Shown piece after piece: positions 12,096-16,575 of a DNA stretch of 45,000 bases. The position numbers and the translations under genes were made by a program. Every line of letters starts with the position of its first letter. Within the stretch, counting starts at the first letter, position 1. Below the pieces are notes generated by a model. The model ran no database searches and was not told the DNA's origin. It worked only from the letters and a program-made list of their open reading frames with translations. Source of the stretch: Desulfuromonadales bacterium (GTDB lineage Bacteria > Desulfobacterota > Desulfuromonadia > Desulfuromonadales > BM103). The stretch spans positions 1 to 45,000 of the forward strand of contig JAMONP010000056.1 of NCBI GenBank assembly GCA_027065695.1, given 5' to 3'.

Positions 12096-12192
12096 TTGCT
12101 CACCATATAGTGAAGGTTCGCCTGTTTGACAAAATCATAGTTAATCACTATTGTTCAAATGTAATCAAATGGCGATGAACAGGAGATCCGAG

Positions 12193-12462
12193 ATGGCACA
12201 AGCAAACACTAAAGTATTGACGGCACATATCCCTCTGCAAATGGCAGATAAGGTTGACCAGATGGCAATGCGTCTTGAGCGTTCGCGTGGCTGGATCATG
12301 AAACAGGCGCTGTCAGCCTGGATCGATCAAGAAGAAGAGCGTAGTCGTCTTACCCAAGAAGCTTTGGCTGATGTTGATGCTGGTCGTGTCATTGATCATC
12401 AGTCTGTGCAGGCTTGGGCTGACAGACTTGATTCAGCCAGCCCATTGGATGTGCCACGTTGA
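12193..12462 (+). CDS. Ribbon-helix-helix antitoxin (ParD/CopG-like)
   Basis: An 89-residue protein. Its N-terminus has the RHH pattern (KVLTAHIPLQMADKVDQMAMRLERSRGWIMKQALSAW), where the short strand binds DNA and the helices dimerise. The tail is acidic, as expected for toxin wrapping. The ATG at 12193 is chosen because AGGAG lies seven bases upstream; a longer in-frame start at 12151 lacks such a site. The 3' end overlaps the toxin gene by four bases. It would repress its own promoter and neutralise the ParE-like toxin. The antitoxin frame is intact although the partner is damaged. Confidence 0.8.
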   Translation: MAQANTKVLTAHIPLQMADKVDQMAMRLERSRGWIMKQALSAWIDQEEERSRLTQEALADVDAGRVIDHQSVQAWADRLDSASPLDVPR

Positions 12463-12737
12463 TGGCATTTAAATGGACCAGCAAGGCCTTGTCAGATTTG
12501 GCGCGGCTTTATGAGTTTCTGGAGTCAGTCAACAGGGCTGCAGCCGCACGTACTGTTCAGTCACTCGCTGCCGCTCCGACCAATTTACTGGAGAACCCGC
12601 GAATCGGTGAAAGGCTTGAAGAGTTTGATCCGCGTGAAGTCCACCGAATTCTCGTAGGCCATTATGAGCTGCGCTACGAGATTCAATAGTCTACAATTTA
12701 TCTGTTACGGCTGTGGCACACGCGCGAGAAGCGATGA
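12459..12737 (+). pseudogene. ParE/RelE-like toxin cut short by an in-frame amber codon
   Basis: From the ATG at 12459 the frame reads a ParE-type toxin (FKWTSKALSDLARLYEFLE ... VHRILVGHYELRYEIQ) and stops at TAG, 12687-12689, after 76 residues. The same frame continues past TAG as STIYLLRLWHTREKR and a TGA at 12735-12737. That is exactly the conserved C-terminal strand of the family (..IYVLR.WH.RE.R). The full-length gene was therefore about 92 codons, and a point mutation to amber removed the last ~16. The truncated product probably lacks the strand carrying active-site residues. Its overlap with the intact antitoxin gene shows the original operon. Confidence 0.8.
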
Positions 12738-14214: not shown

Positions 14215-14360
14215 TCGACTACCTCCTTTCACAATTTGCGGGGCTCAATTGCATAATTTTAAGTTATCAGGTTATTGGTATGTTTCAATTCCTTTTTCGC
14301 TCTTAATCAGCTGATTAAGTTTGTGTAGTTCGAATTTCCCCTGTCAAAACAAGACAAGAC

Positions 14361-14390
14361 TTGTCATTAATCAGTAAACACTGGTAAAAT
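14361..14390 (+). promoter_or_regulatory. Promoter and overlapping palindrome of the rhodanese gene
   Basis: TTGTCA at 14361-14366 and TAAAAT at 14385-14390 are 18 bases apart, ahead of the gene at 14433. The palindrome GACAAG-A-CTTGTC at 14353-14365 overlaps the -35 box and could be an operator. The regulator is unknown. Confidence 0.45.
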
Positions 14391-14432
14391 CCCAAGTAGG
14401 TGTTAAACATTAACTACAAAAGGAGGATGACA

Positions 14433-14843
14433 ATGCGCAACAAACGTCTTTCATTGTGCACAGTAATTATAACCACAGCGTTTCTGTTAGCAATAAGCCT
14501 CACTGCGAGCGCCGCCTCGGTACCACGGATGTCCACCGATGAACTCAAATCGCGGCTTGGTGATGTCGATCTTGTGGTTCTTGATGTGCGTGGCAGTTGG
14601 GCTCTGGTCAAGTCTGATAATAAAATTGCCGGTTCGGAGCGTGTCGAGCCAGGTGGCGCGAAACAGTGGGCCGGAAATTATCCCAAGGAGAAGACAATCG
14701 TTCTCTACTGCGCCTGAATGAACGAGGCGACCAGTGCCAGTGTGGCACGGACATTGATGGGCATGGGATACTTCAAAATTTACGCTCTTAAAGGCGGATG
14801 GCACGAATGGGAAAGGAAAGGTTACCCGGTTGAGTCTAAATAG
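14433..14843 (+). CDS. Exported rhodanese-like protein with in-frame UGA (probable selenoprotein)
   Basis: Starting from ATG 14433 (AGGAGG six bases upstream), a signal peptide (MRNKRLSLCTVIITTAFLLA to SLTASAA) leads into a rhodanese domain: DVDLVVLDVRGSWALVKSDNKI, then KTIVLYCA. Codon 95 (14715-14717) is TGA. The frame then continues without interruption as MNEATSASVARTLMGMG, then YALKGGWHEWERKGYPV, to TAG at 14841-14843. Relatives have CAC-x-NEATSA in the active loop, so TGA replaces the second loop cysteine: Cys93-Ala-Sec95. Full-length product is 136 residues. A hairpin of bacterial SECIS type follows the TGA. Sulfur-transfer or redox work in the periplasm is likely. The alternative is a nonsense mutation (Cys TGC/TGT to TGA). 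Confidence 0.75.
14731..14750 (+). promoter_or_regulatory. SECIS-like hairpin downstream of the UGA codon
   Basis: GTGCC (14734-14738) pairs with GGCAC (14744-14748) around the loop AGTGT. Below it A14733 bulges and CC (14731-14732) pairs with GG (14749-14750). The apical loop contains GU and begins 21 nt after the UGA. A bulged stem with a G/U-containing loop at this distance matches the known layout of bacterial SECIS elements such as fdhF. The structure also lies in codons that must encode rhodanese residues. Confidence 0.55.
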
Positions 14844-14877
14844 GCTCCGGTTTGCAAATCATAAATGGTAAGTTGAA

Positions 14878-14921
14878 TGGTTACAAGACCTTTAAAATCA
14901 AGAGTTTAAAGGTCAAAACCA
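14878..14921. repeat. Palindromic hairpin after the rhodanese gene
   Basis: GACCTTTAAA (14887-14896) is inverted at 14905-14914, with outer TGGTT/AACCA arms. There is no T-run, so it could be an mRNA-stabilising end or part of the adjoining repeat. Confidence 0.5.
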
Positions 14922-14927
14922 TCGGGA

Positions 14928-15115
14928 GTTTGTAGAGTTCAAAAAAGCAGTGATTGGTCTTCGGTGCCACGCAGCACTCAAGTACTCATCAACTTTGCAG
15001 CAGAACAAAACACCGACCACTGGCGCAAGAAGTGCCCTCCGCAGGAGAAAAGCCTTTTTGCTTACTTTTTTGGCGTTGTAAAAAGTAAGGCGTCTGTCGG
15101 GACGCGACCCGACGG
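14928..15115 (+). repeat. Dispersed ~190-bp repeat, copy A
   Basis: Nearly the same sequence is present in reverse orientation at 20820-21009, with only scattered differences by eye. Shared landmarks are GTGCCACGCAGCAC, ACCGACCACTGG, GAAGTGCCCTCCGCAGGAGA and GTCGGGACGCGACCCGACGG. Inside it CTTACTTTTT (15061-15070) is perfectly inverted at 15080-15089. I see no open reading frame with a plausible product. It resembles intergenic repeats that recur in many proteobacterial genomes. Confidence 0.8.
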
Positions 15116-15195
15116 TGCTGCTTTTGATTTTGTAACTATTCGGCACATGTACTTAAACAGCATTAAGAACACTCCCCTGCTCGTGGTACTCGCTT

Positions 15196-15217
15196 CCCCC
15201 CTGTAAAACAAGGGGGG
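15196..15217. repeat. Short CCCCCC/GGGGGG palindrome
   Basis: Six C residues (15196-15201), a ten-base A-rich loop and six G residues (15212-15217) form a strong hairpin. It lies between repeat copy A and the truncated ilvD. The rest of 15116-15291 shows nothing coding. Confidence 0.5.
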
Positions 15218-15291
15218 ATTGAGGGTCTGAATTATGGGTAAATATACGTCATCCCCGAATGAGTAGTTTTTGCCTTTATAGATTTTCATAG

Positions 15292-16575
15292 ATTCTGATC
15301 GCGTTGATGACTGAAGGTTACCGGGTTGATGCCGTGATCACCCTCTTCGGTTGCGATAAAACCATTCCCGCTGCCCTGATGCCGATTGCACGTAACAACC
15401 TGACCGGTCTGACCCTCTATGGCGGCAGTATCCTGCCCGGCGAATATCATGGCAAAGCACTCAATATCGTCAGTGCCTTTGAAGCGATTGGTGCTCACTG
15501 TGCCGGTAAAATCGATACGGAGGAATTGCATGCAATCGAATGTCATGCCTGCCCGGGAGCCGGTTCCTGTGCTGGCATGTACACCGCCAATACCATGGCT
15601 TCGGCCATCGAAGCCCTTGGTATGAGTCTGCTTGGAGCGGCGTCTAATCTTGCGGTTGATGAAGGCAATGAAATATCGACAGAAAAGCGCGAGGATTGTG
15701 TGCGTGCGGCTCAGGCGGTTATGGCAATGCTTGCATCAGGATCTAAGGCCAGCGACATCATGACCCGCAAGGCTTTTGAAAATGCCCTGACTGTGGCCTG
15801 GGCTTTGGGTGGCTCGACCAACGCGGTCTTACACTTACTGGCTCTGGCCCATGAAGCCAGAGTTGAATTGACCCTTGCCGATATTGAACTAATTACTGCC
15901 AGGGTGCCTTTGCTGGGCAACTTCAAACCTTTTGGCCAGTACGTGATGAATGATCTGCATAAGATCGGTGGTTTGCCGGTGGTGATGAAAACCCTGCTTG
16001 ACGCTGGCTATCTCCATGGTGATTGTCTGACGGTTACCGGTAGAACAATTGCTGAAAACCTGGCTGATGCGCCGCAACGTCCAGAGAATCAGGATGTATT
16101 CTATAGCCCGGAGCAGCCCTATGCACCGGCTCACCAGCATATTCGTGTTCTATATGGCAACCTTGCCTCTGAGGGGTGTGTGTTGAAAATCAGTGGTAAG
16201 GAAATGGCCAGATTTGCCGGCCCGACCCGAGTCTTCGATCGAGAGGATGTTGCTCTGGTAACCGATGGCCGCTTCTCCGGCGGCACTCACGGTATTATGA
16301 TTGGTCACGTGGCTCCCGAAGCTCAAACAGGGGGTGTTCTTGCCGTGGTGAGGGAAGGTGACGTCATTGAGATTGACCTTGAATCTGGTGAGTTGAACCT
16401 AAAGCTTGACGAAGGTGAAATTACTAAGCGACTGGCGCAGTGGCAGGCTCCAGAGACACGATACAAGAGAGGAGTGTTGGCGAAATATGCTCTGCTGGTT
16501 TCGTCGGCGTCTCGGGGGGGCGGTTACCAGTTAACTCTACGCCTGGGGCATTACCGGAATTGTCCTTTGTTGTGA
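15292..16575 (+). pseudogene. ilvD: Dihydroxyacid dehydratase, truncated and frameshifted
   Basis: IlvD/Edd-family sequence enters abruptly near 15292 as ILIALMTEGYRVDAVITLFGC, just before the conserved CDKT. The ~110 N-terminal residues of the usual ~560 are absent, including the first cluster cysteine. The remainder is good: CDKTIPAALMP, YGGSILPG, HACPGAGSCAGMYTANTMA, GGSTNAVLHLLAL, GPTRVFDREDVAL and DGRFSGGTHG. At the 3' end the normal ...LVSSASRGAVTS-stop is lost because a G7 run (16514-16520) has one G too many. The frame runs on to 16575 through unrelated residues. The enzyme of branched-chain amino acid synthesis made here would be inactive, so a second intact ilvD is expected elsewhere. 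The break coincides with the edge of the inverted-repeat segment. Confidence 0.85.

Follow-up and report, generated by a model that had tools for sequence, protein, structure and literature searches.

A predicted selenocysteine-containing rhodanese of the LYCAU (CxU) family in a Desulfuromonadales bacterium

A rhodanese gene with a single in-frame TGA

The window, by which we mean the whole 45,000-nucleotide stretch of DNA that was analyzed, carries a rhodanese gene of 137 codons at 14433-14843 (+ strand). The frame opens with an ATG at 14433 and closes with a TAG at 14841-14843, and the sole in-frame stop between them is a TGA at codon 95 (14715-14717, +), so that the product has 136 residues when the TGA is read as selenocysteine (Sec). 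Another in-frame ATG at 14427, two codons 5' of the first, is an equally possible start. The initial annotation had credited the upstream region with a strong ribosome-binding site and promoter. A ribosome-binding site (AAGGAGG; 14420-14426, +) is indeed found 5' of the ATG. The promoter fares less well: a sigma-70-like TTGTCA and TAAAAT separated by 18 nt (14361-14390, +) is weakly supported, as it is one of 4 such sites on both strands of 14220-15310, compared with 1.5 +/- 1.1 in shuffled sequences. Residues 1-29 (14433-14519, +) make up a hydrophobic leader that, inferred from the sequence, is a probable export signal (the structure model described below places a helix at residues 4-20), and the rhodanese is probably exported.

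The rhodanese domain (residues 34-128; 14532-14816, +) matches Pfam PF00581 with 50.3 bits against a gathering cut-off of 22.2, and this match spans the TGA. The loop around codon 95 translates as LYCA-U-MNEATSA and thus contains an LYCxU motif with the in-frame TGA, in which Cys93 (codon 14709-14711, +) is the first residue of the C-x-U pair. With the TGA read through, the protein scores 159.1 bits against NCBIfam NF041203 (“rhodanese_LYCAU, rhodanese-related (seleno)protein”; curated cut-off 115), while the part before the TGA scores 78.5 bits by itself, which is under the cut-off. The frame is therefore interrupted once and stays in family past the TGA up to a normal stop, as initially annotated.

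Based on these matches, the gene encodes a predicted selenoprotein that is a further member of an already described bacterial family and not a new kind of protein. In the excerpted text of a 2026 review (PMC13188914), NF041203 appears as “Rhodanese-like domain-containing protein form 3”, a CxU selenoprotein family with one Sec, for which reference 13 (Zhang and Gladyshev 2005) is cited, and an excerpt of PMC9312934 lists a CxU rhodanese-related sulfurtransferase. Our protein shares with form 3 a score above the curated cut-off, the LYCxU motif, a single Sec, and the small size of the rhodanese, and nothing sets it apart, with the note that searches of its own assembly yielded no selA, selB, or selD. 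Rhodanese form 1 (UxxS) and forms 2 and 4 (UxxG), as given in the excerpted review table, also combine a rhodanese domain with a predicted Sec but differ from the CxU protein in their Sec motif. The rhodanese/DsbD fusion-like selenoprotein TsoB (NF045694; UxxxxU) is similar in its rhodanese part (38 bits); however, our protein is far under the 805-bit cut-off of that family and has no DsbD-like part. Finally, ordinary rhodaneses (6mxv, 2hhg, and GlpE 1gmx) have the fold in common with it, and 6mxv is also similar by sequence, but they carry Cys rather than Sec, whereas in NF041203 the loop combines both residues as C-x-U.

The rhodanese and ilvD (dihydroxy-acid dehydratase; 15304-16575) are separated by 457 bases (14844-15304) in the window and by 5173 bases in a congener (L085), and the leuC-, leuD-, ilvB-, and ilvN-like genes of congeners, named by reading, are missing from this interval in our genome. 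The ilvD gene in the window lacks its start, with the profile match beginning at position 74 of 316. At 12151-12689 the window contains genes for an RHH (CopG-type) and a ParE-like protein, a probable toxin-antitoxin pair. Among 81 loci, the commonest neighbor (19 loci) is a same-strand upstream membrane protein of about 410-520 amino acids (for example, L136 4581-5945) that is not beside the window copy; the one copy that was scanned had no Pfam or NCBIfam match. Across the 81 loci, neighbor analysis identified no functional partner for the rhodanese.

Recurrence of the TGA and selection on the codons that follow

We scanned a 13-sequence family alignment against genome contigs, confirmed 136 relatives, and examined the best 80 of these. 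In all 80 of these best relatives the aligned codon 95 is TGA, codon 93 is Cys in 76 and TGA in 4, and at least 41 open codons follow the TGA in 79. The copy of Desulfacinum hydrothermale DSM 13146 (L109) has a TAA 18 codons past the TGA and is probably decayed or affected by a sequencing error. In a separate search of 293 genomes, our own included, 37 matches from 34 genomes scored above the NF041203 cut-off, and 36 of the 37 have an internal TGA (one has two).

An alignment of homologs, which the initial annotation had proposed as a check, returns recurrent TGA-containing copies, and it also returns cysteine at codon 95 in three genomes. The remaining above-cut-off match, from G256 (L168), has no internal TGA and is a cysteine version that reads FCGC; of its five core pairs in the hairpin described below, two are broken and two are reduced to G-U, and we classify it as a predicted Sec/Cys exchange with a broken hairpin stem. 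In the more distant relatives from G230 and G223 the loop is YSTC and YSSC, with Ser at codon 93 and Cys at codon 95.

Selection on the gene was assessed by comparing the window copy with six relatives. Over the 40 codons that precede the TGA, pN/pS is 0.28-0.44, and over the 40 that follow it the value is 0.18-0.34, which argues that the part past the TGA is under purifying selection as protein. The window copy is slightly higher in this respect than the six relatives compared among themselves (0.14-0.27 past the TGA). We see no inactivating change in the window copy other than the TGA.

In a small set of relatives, both residues of the pair are specified by TGA. Codons 93 and 95 are both TGA (LYUxU) in L132, L147, L149, and L155, the 4 copies among the best 80 of 136 relatives, and in a further copy from G283 (L026). 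Going by their codons, these five are a double-Sec (UxU) form of the NF041203 family. The tree of 82 rows is poorly resolved; 4 changes are required on it to explain the UxU label, and well-supported branches force at least 3 of them. The clustering of the label is close to that obtained by shuffling (39 of 500 shuffles as low). The string “UxU” is absent from the texts of PMC13188914, PMC9312934, and PMC2398784, and in a literature search rhodanese and UxU occurred together in none of the matches listed; we make no claim that the form is unreported.

A covarying SECIS-like hairpin downstream of the TGA

A hairpin resembling a bacterial SECIS element lies at 14731-14750 (+), with a core stem that pairs 14734-14738 with 14744-14748 around an apical loop at 14739-14743. 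Its first pair is 14 nt past the TGA and its loop is reached after 21-22 nt, which is where the initial annotation had put it, and this geometry fits the bacterial SECIS model in the excerpted text of PMC13188914. As a single sequence, the hairpin folds no better than expected by chance (z -0.74; 40 of 200 shuffles at least as good), and an Rfam scan of the window gave no match at the gathering score. Support for the hairpin comes from covariation and not from single-sequence energy.

The alignment used for this analysis was ungapped and comprised 81 sequences, 80 of them distinct. Stem columns 20-24 with 30-34 are kept across the 80 distinct rows. The pair 21-33 joins two third codon positions; U-A occurs there in 57 rows, C-G in 18, and U-G in 4, and 1 row has no pair. 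The pair 24-30 is C-G in 74, A-U in 5, and U-G in 1; the core stem is thus kept through changes on both sides at synonymous sites. The eight-pair structure has a covariation score of 0.200. None of 500 shuffles reaches this value (0.112 +/- 0.008), and sliding the partners gives 0.042-0.148. Without guidance, RNAalifold recovers the five pairs of the core. Conservation does not extend to the two outermost pairs, which are unpaired in 34 and 45 of the 80 rows.

Structure model and the active-site loop

A single-sequence AlphaFold model was poor (pLDDT 49) and was replaced by one computed from 42 sequences of the family, which has a mean pLDDT of 90. The top structural matches of this second model are rhodaneses, for example 3tp9 (Z 17.3) and 2hhg (Z 16.4), and VIA-align gives Z scores of 15.3 for 6mxv, 16.4 for 2hhg, and 14.8 for GlpE 1gmx. 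The C-x-U pair is placed by the model between a strand at 88-92 and a helix starting at 96.

The residue of the pair that occupies the usual place of the rhodanese cysteine was approached by alignment. HMMER against both domains of 6mxv puts residue 95 opposite the cysteine without a gap, whereas hhalign of the family against the second rhodanese of the genome puts residue 93 opposite its cysteine, at the price of a two-residue gap later in the loop. The hhalign result speaks for a selenoprotein in which Cys93 stands at the usual cysteine position and Sec95 does the resolving. We regard this assignment of roles as possible though doubtful, given the ungapped 6mxv alignments, the more distant relatives in which 93 is Ser and 95 is Cys, and the constancy of TGA at 95 in the best 80 of 136 relatives, in which 93 is Cys or TGA. 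The Ser93/Cys95 relatives, in particular, favor residue 95 as the probable place of the usual rhodanese cysteine.

In the mechanism that we propose, SelB and tRNA-Sec would decode the UGA at codon 95 as selenocysteine with the help of the hairpin beginning 14 nt past it, and the active-site loop would hold Sec95 and Cys93 as a C-x-U pair. Sec95 would most likely be the nucleophile that takes up sulfane sulfur or is oxidized by the substrate, and Cys93 may then resolve it as an Se-S bond.

Selenocysteine decoding genes in the same genome

The search for the four decoding genes suggested by the initial annotation has a mixed outcome: the 108 contigs of the assembly (G000), which is rated 99.95% complete, contain selC but yielded no selA, selB, or selD. 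The tRNA-Sec lies on contig C1 (19024-19115) with 71.7 bits against a gathering score of 47, and it is also called by ARAGORN. For selA there is no match in the assembly. selB gives only matches below the cut-off, to its GTPase part; one of these, at C1:6-83, was set aside as the start of an EF-Tu by reading of the sequence. The three selD matches are all below the cut-off, and their translations read as ThiL-, HypE-, and PurM-like. Taken together, the TGA in all of the best 80 of 136 relatives and in 36 of 37 family matches, the covarying hairpin, selection past the TGA, and the tRNA-Sec bear out the initial proposal of a probable selenoprotein, and the TGA is very likely read as selenocysteine.

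selA is present in 38 of 39 other relatives, the exception (G005) being 59% complete. In the congeners inspected, selB comes next after selA and, contig permitting, is followed by a selD-like gene with a frame that opens behind a stop (the names selB and selD are from reading). In one congener (G004), a YedF gene (TIGR03527) and the tRNA-Sec share the selA-selB contig, where 3.8 kb and three frames separate the tRNA-Sec from selA. Contig C1 of our genome has a YedF-type gene (68% identical), the tRNA-Sec, and then a gene (C1:19175-19882) with a relative in congener G010 a short way upstream of selA, and it ends 0.15 kb past this gene. Given that C1 ends near the place expected for selA-selB-selD, we read its end as a probable assembly break before these genes, a more likely cause of their absence than true loss. 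The last 130 bases of C1 have no match among plasmids, and no second copy of the last 160 bases was found in the sequences compared. In G010 (L083), a small frame with an in-frame TGA (ECQPU), presumably AhpD-like, lies between 1522 and 1882, just upstream of selA.

A true loss would make the rhodanese gene a very young, intact-looking relic, in a lineage that recently lost selA-selB-selD and in which TGA is now a plain stop. The lack of a selA match and the sub-threshold selB and selD matches that read as other kinds of gene would fit such a loss, as would the outcome of a DNA query of 19 kb that covered the three genes of congener G009 and matched only the flank and short repeats. The genome also lacks about 4.7 kb beside the rhodanese that congeners have. 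Moreover, the last gene of C1, between the tRNA-Sec and the contig end, contains an in-frame TAA, and the sequence just past it differs from G010, so that decay of this stretch is possible; because of this TAA we keep true loss as an unlikely explanation rather than dismissing it. Against it stand the high-scoring tRNA-Sec, the intact hairpin, a contig that ends so close to the broken gene, and the intact frames on either side of the TGA in the rhodanese gene and in a second gene of this genome described below. The place that the three genes occupy in G009 holds other genes in our genome (C105), an absence that decides nothing because their location varies among congeners. If the three genes were truly gone while the tRNA-Sec, the rhodanese with its hairpin, and the second TGA gene stayed intact, the genome would have been caught just after losing Sec decoding or would use a decoding route that we do not recognize, which we consider improbable.

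The second TGA gene (C44:55869-56240; L069 1468-2238) is MvhD/HdrA-tail-like (PF02662, 148.7 bits), with CTW-TGA near its start and 236 open codons afterwards, and is a candidate second selenoprotein of this genome. Further searches gave no match for the HesB type, 3 matches of the AhpC type without an internal TGA, and 14 formate dehydrogenase matches below the cut-off, none with an internal stop.

Conclusions and implications

Based on these data, we propose that the gene encodes a rhodanese of the LYCAU/CxU family, probably exported, in which UGA is decoded as Sec by way of the downstream hairpin, with Sec95 as nucleophile and Cys93 as resolving residue, a reading to which we assign a probability of roughly 0.75. 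The presence of just one TGA and a hairpin that is not significant alone might suggest an ordinary rhodanese without Sec, in which the Cys codon became TGA by plain nonsense mutation or through an error in sequencing. This alternative is refuted in practice because the same TGA recurs in relatives from other assemblies, and covariation and continued selection past the TGA also contradict it.

The TGA, its family context, and the hairpin were all recognizable from raw sequence. An assembly can be rated 99.95% complete and lack selA-selB-selD, and selenoprotein genes of genomes of this kind may then be mistaken for truncated ones. For the family, the UxU copies in relatives would provide a natural test of which loop residue does the chemistry.
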